Shown here piece after piece: positions 1,402-10,412 of a stretch of DNA of 20,240 nucleotides (position 1 is the first letter of the stretch; the number at the start of each line of letters is the position of its first letter). Under the pieces are notes generated by a model. The model worked only from the letters and a program-made list of their open reading frames with translations, searched no databases and had not been told where the DNA came from. The stretch comes from a virus: IMG/VR virus record IMGVR_UViG_3300022752_000484, positions 1-20,240 of that record; one strand, given 5' to 3'. A program made the position numbers and the translations under genes.

Positions 1402-2568
1402 ATGAAAAAAACAAAATCAATTGGCGTAGTTAAGTACACGCAAGACGGAAAAGCTTTCATTTCCGAATTAGGAACTGGTAATGACATTACTTCATTGTTC
1501 CGATCCATTATGGTGCAACATGCAGTAGACAACAATGAAGCATTAATATTTGATCATGAAACGGGTCGTGCTAAAAGAATTGGATTAGACCAAATTAATC
1601 AAGAAGAAGTAATACTAACCTCAGACCCTCAACCTCAAACTAAACAAGACGCAGATCCAGTATTAGCATTGATTCAAAATGCACATAAAATTAAACCTGC
1701 TAGCTTAGAAATGTCTGACATTAAATGGAAGTATCTAGTTAGATCAGCCGTGCGAGGTAAAAACATCATGATGGTTGGCCCTGCAGGATGCGGTAAGACA
1801 CAGGCCGCTAAAGAATTACCTATAGCAACTAATCGACCATTCTTTTATTTTAACTTGGGTGCTACGCAAGATCCTCGAGCAACTCTTATTGGTAATACAC
1901 ACTTCAAGCAAGGCGAAACTACCTTTGATGAGTCAGCATTTGTTAGAGCAATTCAAACAGAGAATGCAGTTATTTTGTTGGATGAGTTATCCAGAGCTCA
2001 TCCTGAAGCATGGAATATTTTAATGACAGTGCTTGACGAAGGACAACGCTATTTGCGATTAGATGAAGATGTTGACTCACCAACTATACAAGTTGCAGCA
2101 AATGTATCCTTTATTGCTACAGCAAACATTGGTACGGAGTATACTTCAACACGCGTATTGGATAGAGCATTGATGGATCGTTTTGAAATTATTGAAGTTG
2201 ATATATTGTCATTGTCTCAAGAAGAAGACTTATTGCAAAAGCGATACGGCAATAAAGTATCAACTAGTTTGATTCATGCAGTCGCAGATATTGCAGATGC
2301 AACCCGCAAAGAATGGAGATCAGAAGAAGGCAAACTATCAACAATGATATCAACGCGTATGACAGTTAGAGTATGCGAATTGTTAGCCGACGGATTTTCT
2401 TTGTCAGAAGCCGCTGAGGTTGCAATTATTCCTTTCTTTGATGCATCAGGCGGTGCTGACTCTGAAAGAACATTTGTTAAACAAATCATTCAGAAGCATA
2501 TGGCAACTGAAATGAAAGATATATTTAATACAGGGAATGATGCTTCAAACGAAGCAATACCGTTTTAA
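1402..2568 (+). CDS. MoxR/CobS-type AAA+ ATPase
   Basis: A 388-residue AAA+ protein. Walker A is GPAGCGKT (126-133), Walker B is AVILLDEL (189-196), sensor 1 is FIATAN (237-242) and a candidate arginine finger is DRALMDRF (254-261). The insert around PRATLIGNTHFKQGETTF and the order of motifs fit the MoxR/CobS branch, whose members remodel proteins or help load metals together with a VWA-domain partner. The next gene encodes such a partner, so the two probably act together; this is an inference from gene order. Residues 1-100 have no recognised domain. It has its own promoter and is followed by a terminator-like hairpin. CobS-like proteins are known in large phages, where their role is unclear. 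Confidence 0.9.
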   Translation: MKKTKSIGVVKYTQDGKAFISELGTGNDITSLFRSIMVQHAVDNNEALIFDHETGRAKRIGLDQINQEEVILTSDPQPQTKQDADPVLALIQNAHKIKPASLEMSDIKWKYLVRSAVRGKNIMMVGPAGCGKTQAAKELPIATNRPFFYFNLGATQDPRATLIGNTHFKQGETTFDESAFVRAIQTENAVILLDELSRAHPEAWNILMTVLDEGQRYLRLDEDVDSPTIQVAANVSFIATANIGTEYTSTRVLDRALMDRFEIIEVDILSLSQEEDLLQKRYGNKVSTSLIHAVADIADATRKEWRSEEGKLSTMISTRMTVRVCELLADGFSLSEAAEVAIIPFFDASGGADSERTFVKQIIQKHMATEMKDIFNTGNDASNEAIPF

Positions 2569-2583
2569 TTTTTCATAGCTCGA

Positions 2584-2621
2584 AGAGGGGTGGATCGCTA
2601 AACGTCTGCCTCTCTTTTTTT
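2584..2621 (+). terminator. Probable intrinsic terminator after the ATPase gene
   Basis: AGAGG (2584-2588) can pair with CCTCT (2609-2613), with a few extra pairs inside the loop, followed by seven T at 2615-2621. The stem is short and the loop long, so it may be weak. The next promoter starts 10 bp downstream. Confidence 0.5.
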
Positions 2622-2631
2622 CTATTTCCGG

Positions 2632-2662
2632 TTGGATATTACTGGATAATTTCTTATAATAT
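2632..2662 (+). promoter_or_regulatory. Phage promoter for the zincin/VWA gene
   Basis: CCGG precedes TTGGAT (2632-2637), then 17 bp, then TATAATAT (2655-2662). The 18 bases from the -10 box onward (2655-2672) are identical to those at the groEL promoter (4771-4788), so the initially transcribed region is conserved too. Confidence 0.82.
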
Positions 2663-2680
2663 TTATATAAAAATAAAGAT

Positions 2681-4765
2681 ATGAAACAAGCAGGCAAAGT
2701 AGTTACAACGTACGTTCCCAAGTATGCATCTAGCTTTTGGTTAGATAGAGACTTCGATACCGATTTTAAACGAGAAGATGGTGGTGTAGATTTAACTAAG
2801 TTAGCAGCTGCTCAACGAGCTATAGGTAATTTTGTTAATATTGTTACAGGCAAACAAATTCCAGTAGTTTTTCAAAGCAATGACTCAAGTTATACAGATG
2901 GCGAGCGTGTTGTTATTGGAACTAGTCTTAAAGATAAAGACTTTGACCCCGCAGTAGGATTAGCTCTTCATGAAGGTTCGCACATATTGCTTACGGACTT
3001 TACATTGTTCAAAACAACCACAGGCTCAAATACTTCATACTTAGAAAATACGGTATTTGCCAATGCAATACGAATGAAAGGATTAGATCCGGACATGACA
3101 ATGACTAGAGCACAATTTGGTTTGATAAAAGATTTATTGAATTGGATTGAAGACCGTCGCATCGATTATTATATTTATACAAATGCTCCAGGTTATCGTA
3201 TGTATTATGAAGCAATGTATAACAAATACTTCAATGATAAAATTATTGACACGGCTTTAGAATGTGGTGAAAAATGTAATGAGTCAATTGATGATTACTT
3301 TTTTCATATCATCAATTTTACTAATCCAAAAAGAAAATTGGATGCATTAAAAGAGTTGAGATCTATATGGAATGTAATTGATTTGCAAAACATAAGTCGT
3401 TTACGCAATACAAATGATGCATTAGATGTAGCGTGCCAAGTATATAAATTGATTATTGGTGCAGTTAAGGAACAAGAACAACAGACGGCATCGACACAAA
3501 TTACACCTAGCGAGTCTGGCAGTGAACAAGGAACTTCAATGTCAGGTGCAGGCGGGGATGCTGATGATGATATCGAAGGAGATGGCGACGGAGAAGGTGA
3601 AGGTGAAGAAGGCGATGGCGAAGATACTCAATCTAAATCATTATCCGAACGGCAACTTGAAAAATTGCAAAAAGCTTTGCAAAAGCAAAAAGATTTTCTT
3701 GCCGGTGACATGAAAAAAACTGGTAGATTATCAAAAGCACAAGCAGCTACCGTTAATGCATTACGAGAATCAGGCACCGAAGTTAGAATGGTAGATACTT
3801 CGATGGGCGGCCCAATGAATTCAATTGAATCAGTTGTTATTAAAAAATTGACTTCAAACATTATTTGCACAATGCCAAGTTTATTTAGTAATATGTCTGA
3901 TGAATACATTAATGGTTCAAGAAATTATGAAGCAGATGTAATTGCAAATTCGAATAGAGTTAAACACATTCAGCGTAATGATGAAGCAGTTCAGAGAGGC
4001 ATCATTTTAGGCAAACAATTAGGTCGTAAATTGCAAGTACGAGATTCGGATCGAACTCTTAAGACTACAAGATTGGCAGCCGGTAAAATTGATAGACGTT
4101 TAGTTTCTCAATTGGGTTATGATAATGTCAATGTATTTCATCGAATCGTAACGGATCGTTATAAAAATTATTTCATACATATTTCAATTGATGCATCAGG
4201 CTCGATGAGCGGAGATAAACTAAGAAATGCAATAACATCTGCAGTAGCTATAGCACAAGCAGCTTCAATGACAACGGGTATTAGAGTTCAAATATCATTG
4301 CGAGGAACAGACTGTTTATCTTCATCTAGAGAAAAGACAGTTACATTGTATGCATATGATTCTGCACATGACAAAATGTCTAAGATTAAATCAATGTTTA
4401 AGTATCTAGACGTATTTGGATGTACTCCAGAGGGCATTGCATTTAAAAGTATTGAAAAAGACATCAAGCAAGATGCAAAAGGCGATGAATGTATTTTTAT
4501 AAACTATTCAGATGGCGAACCTTCTAATGTATATGGAACGCAATATTCTTATAATGGAGAAGAATATACCCGTAGAGTCATAAACGGTTTCCGAGAAATA
4601 GGAATGAATATTATTTCATATTTTATTTACCAAGGGACAATATATGCCGGAACGAAACACGCATTTCATACAATGTACGGACCAGATGCTCAATTTATTG
4701 ACCCGGTGAATATGTCACAAGTATCCAGAACAGTTAATCAAAAGTTCTTGGAAATGGCTGAATAA
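2681..4765 (+). CDS. Zincin-like metallopeptidase fused to a VWA domain
   Basis: A 694-residue protein. An N-terminal HExxH motif (LHEGSH, His97-Glu98-His101) is followed about 56 residues later by NWIEDRRID (154-162), whose Glu could be the third zinc ligand. Residues about 265-320 form a linker rich in Gly, Asp and Glu. The C-terminal third is a von Willebrand A domain with a MIDAS motif DASGS (Asp504, Ser506, Ser508). This layout resembles CobT-like or VWA metallopeptidase partners of MoxR ATPases, and the ATPase is the gene just upstream. No signal peptide is seen, so it is likely cytoplasmic. The substrate is unknown. A role in remodelling or processing proteins during infection is inference. 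Confidence 0.85.
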   Translation: MKQAGKVVTTYVPKYASSFWLDRDFDTDFKREDGGVDLTKLAAAQRAIGNFVNIVTGKQIPVVFQSNDSSYTDGERVVIGTSLKDKDFDPAVGLALHEGSHILLTDFTLFKTTTGSNTSYLENTVFANAIRMKGLDPDMTMTRAQFGLIKDLLNWIEDRRIDYYIYTNAPGYRMYYEAMYNKYFNDKIIDTALECGEKCNESIDDYFFHIINFTNPKRKLDALKELRSIWNVIDLQNISRLRNTNDALDVACQVYKLIIGAVKEQEQQTASTQITPSESGSEQGTSMSGAGGDADDDIEGDGDGEGEGEEGDGEDTQSKSLSERQLEKLQKALQKQKDFLAGDMKKTGRLSKAQAATVNALRESGTEVRMVDTSMGGPMNSIESVVIKKLTSNIICTMPSLFSNMSDEYINGSRNYEADVIANSNRVKHIQRNDEAVQRGIILGKQLGRKLQVRDSDRTLKTTRLAAGKIDRRLVSQLGYDNVNVFHRIVTDRYKNYFIHISIDASGSMSGDKLRNAITSAVAIAQAASMTTGIRVQISLRGTDCLSSSREKTVTLYAYDSAHDKMSKIKSMFKYLDVFGCTPEGIAFKSIEKDIKQDAKGDECIFINYSDGEPSNVYGTQYSYNGEEYTRRVINGFREIGMNIISYFIYQGTIYAGTKHAFHTMYGPDAQFIDPVNMSQVSRTVNQKFLEMAE

Positions 4766-4778
4766 AACAATATAATAT
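4748..4778 (+). promoter_or_regulatory. groEL promoter inside the end of the preceding gene
   Basis: TTGGAA (4748-4753) lies in the last codons of the VWA gene; TATAATAT (4771-4778) follows after exactly 17 bp. The leader ends in AAGAAAGAAAGG, a strong purine-rich ribosome site for ATG 4808, so GroEL may be translated more strongly than its neighbours. Confidence 0.75.
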
Positions 4779-4795
4779 TTATATAAAAGTTATAA

Positions 4796-6417
<1,622 letters not shown>

Positions 6418-6418
<1 letters not shown>

Positions 6419-8508: not shown

Positions 8509-8835
8509 ATGGAAGACATAAAAATAATACATTTAAAAAGCAATGCCCAACAGTTAGAAACGTGGATTGCTATGGTTAGCGGCGAAATTGTAGGACATAT
8601 CTACATGGAACGAGAACGAGATCAAAAGATTAAATTCTTAGATGCTTGGGTACATGAAGAACATCGCCGGAAAGGCATCTTCAGAATGCTATGGGAAGCA
8701 CGTTGGGAATATGTACAAAACAAATATCCCGGATGGTTAGCGTATGCATGGTGCAAACCTGCATCATTACCACTGCTTCTAGAAAAAGGATTTGATGCTG
8801 GCGAAACGTGCACGTATGTTGAAAAACTAATTTAA
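8509..8835 (+). CDS. GNAT-family N-acetyltransferase
   Basis: A 108-residue protein, near the minimum for this fold. The acetyl-CoA motif A is HEEHRRKGIFRMLWEARW (about 46-63), with RRKGIF in the place of the usual Q/RxxGxG/A loop. The beta-strand before it (KIKFLDAWVH) and the C-terminal strand-helix (AYAWCKPASLPLLLEKGF) fit GNAT motif B. It transfers an acetyl group from acetyl-CoA to an amine; the substrate cannot be read from sequence. It lies 2 bp after the preceding gene. Confidence 0.8.
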   Translation: MEDIKIIHLKSNAQQLETWIAMVSGEIVGHIYMERERDQKIKFLDAWVHEEHRRKGIFRMLWEARWEYVQNKYPGWLAYAWCKPASLPLLLEKGFDAGETCTYVEKLI

Positions 8836-8853
8836 AAAAGTTTAACGGCCCGG

Positions 8854-8884
8854 TTGGATTGTATCGATATTTTTTATATATTAA
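8854..8884 (+). promoter_or_regulatory. Phage promoter for the small ORF and RNA cluster
   Basis: CCCGG precedes TTGGAT (8854-8859), then 17 bp, then TATATTAA (8877-8884). ATG 8903 follows after a leader ending AAATAAAAAGAG. No gene on the other strand intervenes, so this promoter probably drives the tRNAs and the RNA block up to 9656. Confidence 0.75.
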
Positions 8885-8902
8885 GGATATAAATAAAAAG
8901 AG

Positions 8903-9058
8903 ATGACAGTAGAACATTTAATAAACGAAACTTATCAGGTAATAGATGAAGCAACGGCTCTAGTAGTATATCAAGGTACGCAGGAAGATTGCCAATTGGT
9001 TATGTATGCCGAAGAAGAAGCTCGATTGCGAGAAGAGTTTATTCTAATGATGAGTTAA
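8903..9058 (+). CDS. Small acidic hypothetical protein (51 aa)
   Basis: ATG 8903, TAA 9056-9058. Sequence begins MTVEHLINETYQVIDEATALV and contains VVYQGTQEDCQLVMYAEEEA. The motif 'valine-tyrosine-x-glycine-[ST]-x-glu-asp-cys' is one I recall in short phage and bacterial proteins of unknown role that carry two short strands and a helix. It has a good promoter and an AAAGAG ribosome site, which supports expression. Confidence 0.7.
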   Translation: MTVEHLINETYQVIDEATALVVYQGTQEDCQLVMYAEEEARLREEFILMMS

Positions 9059-9064
9059 ATACAT

Positions 9065-9136
9065 GTTCCGTTAGTGAAGTGGTAAACACGTCGCTCTTTC
9101 TAAGCGAAGGCACGAGTTCAAATCTCGTACGGAATA
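9065..9136 (+). tRNA. tRNA-Glu (UUC)
   Basis: Acceptor GTTCCGT (9065-9071) pairs with ACGGAAT (9129-9135), discriminator A at 9136. D-arm GTG/CAC has loop AAGTGGTAAA. Anticodon stem TCGCT/AGCGA has loop CTTTCTA, giving anticodon TTC at 9098-9100. Variable loop AGGC. T-arm ACGAG/CTCGT has loop TTCAAAT. CCA is not encoded (CAA follows). Base 37 is T, while a purine is usual there. It resembles Bacteroidota tRNA-Glu as I remember it. Confidence 0.9.
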
Positions 9137-9142
9137 CAAAAA

Positions 9143-9191
9143 CGCTTTAAATAGGACGAAGCGCAAGTCCAGAGCAGGGTGCGGGTCCTGC
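9143..9191 (+). ncRNA. Structured spacer between tRNAs: candidate pseudoknot plus hairpin
   Basis: CGCTT (9143-9147) can pair with AAGCG (9159-9163), and GGAC (9154-9157) with GTCC (9167-9170). The two are interleaved, so they form either an H-type pseudoknot or alternative hairpins. A further hairpin GCAGG (9174-9178)/CCTGC (9187-9191) has the 8-base loop GTGCGGGT. No ORF covers it. It could be the 5' part of a longer RNA that includes the following tRNA-like element. Confidence 0.5.
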
Positions 9192-9196
9192 AACAT

Positions 9197-9328
9197 GGTC
9201 GGGTGGCGGAATTAGTAGACGCTATTAGTTGTGTAAGGGGAGACATGAAGTGGAATTCATGCCGCCCACCAGGTAACCACGCCAGACAAGCAACTATACC
9301 ATCACAGGTTCGAACCCTGTCCTGACTA
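9197..9328 (+). tRNA. tRNA-Leu-like element with an extra internal segment
   Basis: Both ends are tRNA-like. Acceptor GGTCGGG (9197-9203) pairs with CCTGACT (9321-9327) with two GU pairs; discriminator A is at 9328. Then come TG, a leucine-type D-arm (GCG, loop GAATTAGTAGA, CGC, 9206-9222) and a perfect T-arm ACAGG/CCTGT with loop TTCGAAC (9304-9320). The middle (9223-9303) is 81 bases, where a long-variable-arm tRNA would have roughly 33. It has no normal anticodon arm. TAGTTG (9226-9231) pairs with CAACTA (9291-9296), and inside it lies hairpin CATGAA/TTCATG (9244-9261). It may be a tRNA carrying a small intron or insertion, a tRNA mimic, or a domain of a larger RNA. The amino acid is inferred from the D-arm only. 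Confidence 0.6.
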
Positions 9329-9656
9329 CGCAAAAAACACAGAATGGAGTTTCCTTACCTCAGAGGAGATGGGTTTTACAAGTTCAGATATTTATATTAG
9401 TATCTACCACGCTTCTGGATTGTGGTGACCACGGTCGAGCGTACCAGGGTAGATCTTTTGCCCCCTGTGGTGAGATAACCATAGGCCCAGTGCCATCGGG
9501 CTTACCGTAAGATCAGCTCACTTGTATGGCCTTCTTGGTGCCGGGAAATGGAACCTGCTTCAGATGGTGATGGACGCATCCTCGCTGAACAATCCTATAA
9601 CCAGTATCGCCCCTTAGTAAGACTGTCTGATCAACGGAAACTGCTAAGGGTTTTTT
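9329..9656 (+). ncRNA. Non-coding structured RNA region of unknown class
   Basis: About 330 bases with no credible ORF and visibly richer in G and C than the genes around it. Stems seen by eye: AGATA/TATCT (9386-9405); ATCTACC-ACGC (9402-9412) with GCGT (9439-9442) and GGTAGAT (9448-9454), enclosing GTGG-TGA-CCAC (9422-9432); AGGCCC/GGGCTT (9483-9503) with a 9-base loop; and a long-range GGATTGT (9417-9423)/ACAATCC (9589-9595). It ends in a terminator. Large phage RNAs of the GOLLD and ROOL classes occur beside phage tRNAs, and this is a plausible relative, but I cannot match a consensus. I find no tmRNA tag, RNase P core or group I core. Confidence 0.55.
9611..9656 (+). terminator. Intrinsic terminator of the tRNA/RNA block
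   Basis: CCCTTAG (9611-9617) pairs with CTAAGGG (9644-9650), followed by six T at 9651-9656. An outer CCAGTA (9601-9606)/TACTGG (9656-9661) stem can also form. The 26-base loop is large, so it may double as a structural domain of the RNA. Confidence 0.7.
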
Positions 9657-9661
9657 ACTGG

Positions 9662-9692
9662 TTGGATAATTGAAATAATTTATATATCATAT
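9662..9692 (+). promoter_or_regulatory. Phage promoter for the metallophosphoesterase gene
   Basis: TTGGAT (9662-9667) preceded by GG, 17 bp, TATCATAT (9685-9692). ATG 9696 begins 4 bases after the -10 box, so the predicted transcript start falls at the start codon (leaderless or nearly so). Confidence 0.65.
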
Positions 9693-9695
9693 ATT

Positions 9696-10412
9696 ATGAA
9701 GCTTGTATTAACATTTATATCAGATACGCATACAAAACATCGTTATTGTGAAAAGGATTTACCAGGTGGTGATATTCTTATTCACGCCGGAGACTTTATG
9801 AATTCGGGCCGATATGAGTATGAAGCTACAGATTTCTTAGATTGGTTTGAAGGAATAAATAACTACAAGAACAAAATATTCATTGCAGGTAATCATGATC
9901 GTTTGTTTGAACATGATGCCGATTGGAGAAAAATGATTCTGGATGAATATAAAACAATAGACTATCTGCAAGACGAAGATTGGGTTGATTACAATGATGG
10001 ACCTAACGGAGAATATCCGGAAGACAATATTCGTATTTATGGTTCGCCATGGCAGCCGGAATTTTACAATTGGGCATTTAATTTACCCCGTAATGGTGAA
10101 GCCATGAAAGCTCGTTGGGATGCAATACCTGATAACACTGACATCTTAATCACCCATGGGCCTGCATTTGGATATTTGGATATTCCAGGAGGACAAAGTG
10201 TGCGAGTAGGTTGTGAAATGTTAAGACATCGCATTGATGCATTTAAACCAAAGATGCATGTATTTGGACATATTCATGGCAGTGCTGGATATTATTTTAA
10301 TGGACATACACACTTTATTAATGCTAGTATCCTTAATGAAGGCTATGTTTATGCAAATCAACCCTTGACTGTAGAATGGGATAACATAACAAACGAAATA
10401 AAATGGTTGTAA
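9696..10412 (+). CDS. Calcineurin-like metallophosphoesterase
   Basis: A 238-residue enzyme with all dimetal-site motifs: DTH (10-12), GDF (32-34), GNHD (65-68), the histidine of ITHGP (154) and GHIH (191-194). The compact order, with PGGDILIHAGD and THGPAFGYLD, resembles the MPPED1/2-like branch, which hydrolyses cyclic nucleotides or other phosphodiesters. The phage substrate is unknown; possibilities include host cyclic-nucleotide signals or nucleic-acid ends. No signal peptide, so cytoplasmic. It follows its own promoter and is separated by 1 base from the next gene, starting a long run of small genes. Confidence 0.92.
   Translation: MKLVLTFISDTHTKHRYCEKDLPGGDILIHAGDFMNSGRYEYEATDFLDWFEGINNYKNKIFIAGNHDRLFEHDADWRKMILDEYKTIDYLQDEDWVDYNDGPNGEYPEDNIRIYGSPWQPEFYNWAFNLPRNGEAMKARWDAIPDNTDILITHGPAFGYLDIPGGQSVRVGCEMLRHRIDAFKPKMHVFGHIHGSAGYYFNGHTHFINASILNEGYVYANQPLTVEWDNITNEIKWL

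Follow-up and report, generated by a model that had tools for sequence, protein, structure and literature searches.

The window – the whole stretch of 20,240 nucleotides of viral DNA analysed here – carries, among its protein genes, a GIY-YIG homing endonuclease with a NUMOD3 motif (551–1171) and, at 1402–6418, a MoxR-type AAA ATPase, a 694-aa protein for which Pfam has no match and a GroEL-type chaperonin, in this order. Further along lies an array of small units that starts with a tRNA and ends with a terminator. The features needed for what follows are these:

4808–6418, + strand: GroEL-type chaperonin gene
9065–9137, + strand: tRNA-Glu (TTC), the start of the array (ARAGORN; Rfam tRNA model, 64.9 bits)
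9138–9196, + strand: module M0, with hairpins GGAC..GTCC and GCAGG..CCTGC (9 nhmmer hits, 6 distinct sequences)
9197–9328, + strand: tRNA-like element (TLS), its anticodon arm replaced by cargo (Rfam tRNA model, 29.1 bits, with a 62-nt insertion)
9197–9203 with 9321–9327, 9206–9222, 9304–9320 and 9328, + strand: acceptor stem, D-arm, T-arm and discriminator A of the TLS
9226–9296, + strand: cargo of the TLS, closed by the stem TAGTTG (9226–9231)/CAACTA (9291–9296); its core recurs elsewhere
9238–9267, + strand: core of the cargo, GGGAGA–hairpin (GTGGAA loop)–CCGCCC
9330–9386, + strand: module A, a small RNA of three helices, its internal segments near-invariant (20-sequence alignment)
9389–9396, + strand: promoter-like motif TATTTATA just 5′ of module B, of putative function
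9399–9463, + strand: segment B1 of module B, a long stem GTATCTACC/GGGTAGATC around a hairpin (28-sequence alignment)
9464–9656, + strand: segment B3 of module B, eight helices with the terminator last (25-sequence alignment)
9610–9656, + strand: hairpin of the intrinsic-terminator type followed by T6, the 3′ end of B (helix 7 of alignment A3)

The first-pass annotation had described 9143–9656 as a gene-free block of distinct base composition, rich in potential stems and closed by a terminator at 9656, and on these points it stands. No credible open reading frame is found there; GC content reaches 0.47 at 9001–9500, the top 500-base step in a window of 35% GC overall; the minimum free energy (MFE) of 9138–9656 is −170.3 kcal/mol (z −2.37), with 1 of 100 shuffles equally low; and a hairpin stem (9610–9617/9644–9650) precedes six T residues at 9651–9656. 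This hairpin was missed by an automated terminator scan because of its long loop, and in the B3 alignment its helix comprises 8 pairs, 6 of them changed on both sides. A promoter near 8854, also part of that description, was not borne out: no sigma-70 site is listed there, and the region has 12 sites against 15.8 expected. The long-range 7-bp match between 9417–9423 and 9589–9595 (GGATTGT/ACAATCC) does exist, but of the 19 loci in which both segments are present, just 3 preserve all seven pairs, and covariation places both of its strands into local helices instead.

What the block turns out to contain differs more deeply from the single large structured RNA that had been suggested. Non-coding and located beside phage tRNAs it is, but its modules are separable and a second tRNA-like element (9197–9328) lies within it, so that, as far as sequence comparison can tell, 9138–9656 is a row of separate exchangeable units – M0, TLS, A and B – and not one giant RNA. 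Among relatives, gathered by the proteins on either side of the block and by DNA patterns, tRNAs stand between A and B in locus L007, and an ORF does so in L004; L017, L034 and L052 have B3 and no B1; B1 is followed by M0, and not by B3, in L096 and L294; and a variable insertion lies between B1 and B3 in many others. M0, found between tRNA-Glu and the TLS in the window, is elsewhere followed by tRNA-Leu (L004 and L007), tRNA-Glu (L294) or other sequence. Locus L002 lies on a phage that shares 86–93% identity with the window in most of the pieces that align. It matches 8852–9064 at 89% and 9304–9720 at 95%, yet is unrelated in tRNA-Glu (62% of columns, against 49% in a shuffled control), in the next module (46%) and in the middle of the TLS (30%). 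One breakpoint coincides with the tRNA start, the other with the TLS T-arm, and by this comparison the tRNA-Glu/M0/TLS block is replaced wholesale in L002.

GOLLD and ROOL, to which the block had been likened, are large structured phage RNAs near tRNA islands; GOLLD has a universally conserved 3′ region, many of its members exceed 800 nt and its linker can hold tRNAs (PMC12286853). Assembly into a homo-oligomeric RNA nanocage is a further hallmark of ROOL and GOLLD. Being structured, terminator-ended and placed beside phage tRNAs, 9143–9656 shares enough with these RNAs, of which GOLLD accommodates tRNAs, for a single ornate RNA of their kind to deserve consideration. However, neither the window nor its relatives show a sequence or structure match to GOLLD (RF01998) or ROOL: Rfam returned none up to E=10 in the window, none at the gathering score in 16 related loci, none up to E=5 in L004 and none up to E=0.5 in seven further loci. 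The block is, moreover, 519 nt long and made of separable, shuffled units, the largest of which, module B, measures about 255–400 nt (~255 nt in the window); the 5′ half is swapped wholesale in L002 and the 3′ half stays; and B has a promoter-like motif of its own. One large RNA of this kind thus has a very slim chance of being the right description, and membership in GOLLD or ROOL falls away. The other option raised at first pass, a new class, is right for three of the units: A, B and the TLS.

At the centre of the array is the TLS. The geometry of acceptor, D-arm and T-arm in the tRNA model (RF00005) is all present, at 29.1 bits against a gathering threshold of 29, and neither ARAGORN nor the gathering-mode Rfam scan calls a tRNA at 9197–9328. 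Its acceptor stem, GGTCGGG/CCTGACT, includes G–U pairs, and a 5-bp anticodon stem with a 7-nt loop, U33 and a purine at 37 was not found in it. In the MFE fold of the window TLS, the D-loop forms a hairpin with downstream sequence, rather than the D-arm and closing stem given above.

Since the window’s own 5′ half is divergent (an exact 24-base pattern from it had 0 matches in viral contigs), the 3′ half of its relatives was used as the search pattern, which yielded at least 120 stretches. A fuzzy scan of 311 loci plus the window then gave 256 rows; 24 in which no 5′ half was recognised, and 10 that exceeded 200 nt, were set aside. This left 222 copies with both halves and lengths within 60–200 nt; identical copies were merged, near-identical ones may remain, and the family size of at least 222 copies is a lower bound. 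The copies range from 69 to 191 nt (median 103.5). The acceptor AGTCAGG/CCTGACT is unaltered in 185 of 222, and 214 have every acceptor pair intact; all T-stem pairs form in 215, 9 copies showing changes on both strands of this stem; position 8 is T in 216, the D-loop region has GG in 204 and a D-stem is possible in 203 – a constancy that is in part inflated, as most copies were found through a pattern with a constant T-arm and acceptor. In a pattern-independent check on 29 copies from 22 loci fetched by neighbouring proteins, the acceptor is identical in 22, the discriminator is A in 26 and the next base is C in all 29: at the sequence level, a tRNA-type processing signature. The same junction, with C after the discriminator, is found in 435 of 471 ordinary tRNAs.

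The decoding part behaves quite differently. A canonical anticodon arm is present in 2 of the 222 copies, compared with 110 of 127 ordinary tRNAs under the same test, and the middles of the elements fall into 184 insert clusters, of which 156 are singletons. As ARAGORN calls a tRNA in 36 of the 222 copies, mostly with odd or incomplete anticodons or anticodon loops, the border between TLS and real tRNA is not sharp. Such diversity, together with weak average folding of the inserts, is what one would expect of decaying tRNA genes or functionless recombination debris. Decay should, however, also have struck the acceptor, T-arm and D-arm, which are paired in more than 90% of copies, and it sits poorly with insert families that recur across phages with compensatory changes and with the reuse of two separate cargo slots; we regard it as highly improbable. 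One locus, L170, packs eight TLS copies of the counted set into 5 kb, along with real tRNAs and additional modules. In L004, a very short tRNA-like element (1856–1918; 33.4 bits with the tRNA model and a weak mascRNA score) has another acceptor, which indicates that other TLS families exist.

The exact T-arm pattern of the TLS occurs in 4 contigs among GTDB genomes, all of them metagenome-assembled and two assigned to Bacteroidota; a search allowing up to 3 mismatches did not find it in Flavobacterium phage immuto 2-6A, LR756502.1 or Bacteroides phage DAC16. The thymidylate synthase of the window is closest to that of Flavobacterium phage immuto (52.9%), and this kinship, taken with the GTDB contigs, makes a Bacteroidota host likely for the window phage.

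What takes the place of the anticodon arm is not arbitrary sequence throughout. The cargo core of the window recurs in the same frame in L015, L309, L326, L348 and L352, and in these five homologues the hairpin and closing stem differ from those of the window yet stay complementary: CATGAA/TTCATG and TAGTTG/CAACTA in the window correspond to TGCAG/CTGTA and GTTAG/CTAAC in L015. The alignment of the six homologues (A4), four rows of which have wrong ends, was used for the core only. A pattern search for the cargo returned 40 stretches in 27 distinct contexts, of which 6, the window included, have a T-arm downstream; most of the stretches are taken as chance matches, since they lack a TLS context. 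A second cargo sits in the D-loop and is common to L017, L183 and L326, whose arm cargos all differ; that of L326 is of the window type. As the same D-loop cargo accompanies three different arm cargos, the two slots are filled independently. Averaged over 190 inserts, the folding z-score against shuffles is −0.58, a slight advantage only, with 9% below −2, so part of the cargo may be unstructured or drifting. Families, structures, modularity, cargo homology and cassette replacement are all shown by sequence comparison.

An insert at this site, next to a tRNA-Leu-like D-arm, also brings to mind an intron-bearing tRNA gene, interrupted in the anticodon loop – the usual place of tRNA introns – from which splicing would restore a normal tRNA. 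The evidence runs against it: no group I intron match was obtained up to E=10, and the inserts are far too short for one (the window cargo has ~70 nt); the intron mode of ARAGORN finds only tRNA-Glu; copies of 69–78 nt leave no room for an intron and still have no canonical arm; and some copies carry cargo in the D-loop. We give the intron next to no chance.

The occurrence of ACCGCCCGTCAA in cargo of the L015 type raised the possibility of rRNA mimicry or pairing by the cargo, which was tried and rejected. With block shuffles and reversed sequences as controls, and with both sense and antisense matches counted, no enrichment was seen at k=10–12 except for antisense 10-mers, which numbered 128 against an average of 109 and a maximum of 122, a slight excess that is gone at 11 and 12. 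No cargo target was found in the six host-family rRNA loci used, which were taken with flanks, untrimmed and some of them reversed, so that the two directions are mixed.

The units around the TLS have their own conserved structures. Comparison of homologous loci, which might have come out without covariation and did not, reveals it in both A and B. Module A (20 sequences) has 11 pairs, with 95.8% of cells paired and two-sided change in 7 of 11; B1 (28 sequences, 27 distinct rows) has 18 pairs, with 99.1% of cells paired and two-sided change in 10 of 18; B3 (25 rows) has 42 pairs, with 96.0% of cells paired and two-sided change in 27 of 42. Cells with two-sided change amount to 30 in A against 9.9 in shuffles (0 of 500 shuffles reach 30), to 27 in B1 against 4.8 and to 148 in B3 against 46.9 (all 500 shuffles exceeded in both cases), counts that are not to be read as probabilities, because each structure was derived from the very alignment on which it was assessed and the sequences in it are related. 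When partners are slid by 1–3 columns, every measure collapses in A, B1 and B3. One helix of B3 (columns 36–40/72–76) was placed by eye. In M0, compensatory changes are visible across the 6 distinct sequences.

Module A sits immediately 3′ of the TLS end in the window, and each of its 34 distinct copies directly follows a tRNA-type 3′ end, which in 21 cases is of the TLS family. A TLS of the counted set stands before 12 of the 20 aligned A modules, with a mean pairwise identity of 0.44 between the inserts. In 100 TLS loci scanned with model R1, no further module A was found. Its near-invariant joining segments around covarying helices, and its invariable start right behind a tRNA-type 3′ end, would suit a catalytic or ligand-binding RNA – A might, for instance, trim the 3′ end of the preceding tRNA or TLS, and B could be considered in the same light. 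Against this, known ribozymes and riboswitches gave no match up to E=10, save a weak hammerhead outside A, and no gene is placed as a regulated target of A; a catalytic or sensing role thus appears improbable. The hammerhead match (17.2 bits, E 0.61), which covers tRNA-Glu and M0, is given no weight, and neither is the other sub-threshold Rfam match in the window at E≤10, Plastid-ycf2 on the antisense of tRNA-Glu; intron and riboswitch families had no match up to E=10 in 8800–9800.

A scan of the TLS loci with model R2 recovered a full B3 in L163 and partial matches in five loci. Most of the partial matches are a reused B3 hairpin of the GCATACCGTAAGATCTGC type, a recurrent sub-motif of TLS arrays, with sites at L226 6791–6825, L179 4480–4505, L256 4081–4106, L218 5600–5638 (− strand) and L191 1661–1752.

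Ahead of module B, 11 of 25 non-redundant flanks have TATTTAT or ATATTTA in the 25 nt immediately 5′ of B1, against a shuffled mean of 0.88 and maximum of 6; the other 14 flanks lack the motif, and some of these follow directly upon a tRNA. The presence of both a promoter-like motif and a terminator suggests that B is probably a transcript of its own in many phages. Within the window, the motif ATATTTATA is seen at 2660, 4776 and 9389, shortly 5′ of + strand units in each case – an ORF at 2681, the GroEL-like ORF at 4808 and module B – and may be regarded as a candidate phage promoter.

The tRNA parts that make up the TLS shell are the recognition features for RNase P, for 3′ maturation and for CCA addition. 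As the element keeps the parts needed for tRNA maturation and loses the part needed for decoding, we propose that it is a processing scaffold with a cargo. What we infer about the transcription, processing, promoter and function of the block is as follows. The TLS retains what the maturation enzymes see – a 7-bp acceptor stem, U8, a D-arm with GG, a T-arm with TTCGA and an A-then-C 3′ junction like that of the phage’s real tRNAs – with structured cargo RNA filling the place of the anticodon arm; some copies have another cargo in their D-loop as well. The array would be co-transcribed with the tRNAs, RNase P would cut 5′ of the TLS and 3′ maturation behind the discriminator base, and a stable, tRNA-shaped cargo carrier would result. 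The same cuts would release M0 and A with defined ends, the TLS punctuating the transcript in the manner of mascRNA, and B would be made mainly from its own promoter as a free, terminator-ended structured RNA of ~255 nt. Cassettes may be exchanged between phages by recombination at the constant tRNA and TLS ends, and the fast-changing cargo would most likely engage RNA or proteins of the host or of rivals, as a decoy or an sRNA. To this reading as a whole, with the TLS as a natural tRNA scaffold, an enzyme-excised cargo carrier that punctuates the array, we assign a probability of roughly 60%. The wider picture, offered tentatively and at slightly less than even odds, is of a broad environmental phage lineage, probably of Bacteroidota, in which a two-slot tRNA-like chassis carries a swappable small-RNA repertoire and liberates M0, A and B, as an RNA counterpart of protein-coding anti-defence islands.

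On the question of why the cargo changes so fast, the main rival, itself compatible with a scaffold, sees in the TLS copies decoys that draw off tRNA-binding or tRNA-cutting host defences: the body would be the bait, and the variable part would spoil translation or escape recognition. A phage-specific, multi-copy, fast-changing locus beside real tRNAs, retaining the tRNA shape with the decoding part gone, is what such a decoy might look like. Yet bait for an anticodon nuclease should keep the anticodon loop, and 220 of 222 copies are without a canonical one; conserved, covarying cargo cores and the reused D-loop cargo point to functions of the cargo itself; and the restriction of the exact 3′ end to the 4 GTDB contigs means that it is no copy of a host tRNA end. 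We consider the decoy unlikely, albeit less so than the other alternatives.

The scaffold reading places the TLS next to several known systems, none of which it matches in full. In tmRNA (ssrA), too, a tRNA-like end has its anticodon arm yield to an unrelated insert, alanine identity rests on a G–U acceptor pair (G3–U70), and the RNA contains a reading frame for a tag. The TLS differs in keeping a D-arm of the tRNA-Leu type, in having inserts of tens of nucleotides and in its 3–70 pair, which is U–A in 218 of 222 copies and U–G in 4; ARAGORN finds no tmRNA at the site, and with G3–U70 absent, a tmRNA identity was rejected. The tRNA-like mascRNA and menRNA (RF01684) make the 3′ ends of MALAT1 and MEN beta via RNase P and RNase Z, so that a non-coding transcript is cut into defined RNAs. 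The TLS probably works like them, even though they are mammalian, short, without cargo and not homologous; matches to RF01684 were confined to elements of L004, at 19.2 and 16.6 bits against a cut-off of 42.5. In the engineered tRNA scaffold (tRSA), RNA cargo replaces the anticodon stem of a tRNA for protection; that device is man-made, whereas the TLS is natural, multi-copy, two-slotted and swapped between phages. The TMERs of gammaherpesviruses are viral tRNA-like elements carrying regulatory RNA, but they belong to a eukaryotic virus and have their cargo 3′ of the tRNA-like part; we claim no homology. Finally, freshwater-1 RNA (RF02979), a small RNA, lies in one such tRNA/TLS array (L052 1435–1496, 74.5 bits) and matches no unit of the window.

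Beyond the tRNA model, nothing in Rfam 15 corresponds to the TLS family or to modules A, B and M0. When the block was compared by BLAST with 50,697 phage records, none covered 80% of it and the best matches were to tRNA-Glu only; one TLS copy likewise gave partial tRNA matches only. No description of a multi-copy, cargo-swapping phage TLS, or of A, B and M0, was found in the literature within reach of our search. Precedents exist for tRNA-like elements whose anticodon arm gives way to other sequence, namely tmRNA, mascRNA and the engineered scaffolds; the multi-copy, two-slot, cargo-swapping phage family, with A, B and M0, appears unmatched. Were the scaffold reading true, phages would have invented the engineers’ tRNA-scaffold trick and would run with it a swappable small-RNA arsenal – RNAs open to testing, whose targets would probably be hosts or rivals, and a natural parts list of scaffolded folds – and phage ‘tRNA arrays’ could hold much beyond tRNAs. 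Such islands have likely been overlooked elsewhere, because ARAGORN and Rfam in gathering mode report none of these modules.

Two further recurrent modules were seen in the relatives. The first, non-coding and absent from the window, lies between tRNAs; the second often has T-rich sequence behind it:

L003 411–578, L004 1690–1855, L007 2619–2800, L015 708–865, L032 2087–2248: module CAGCAGTTACTTGA ... AAATCTCCAC
L008 10–110, L015 947–1055, L034 350–440: module ACCTTAATACCGA...GGTGGCATCGGTGACC

In the cultured relative Flavobacterium phage immuto 2-6A (L319), an unannotated hairpin at 21172–21255 (AAGGACTGGGGTGTCCCCGGTCG), with tRNA-Glu and tRNA-Gln on either side, resembles the apical hairpin of B1 and may offer a handle on this segment in a culturable phage.
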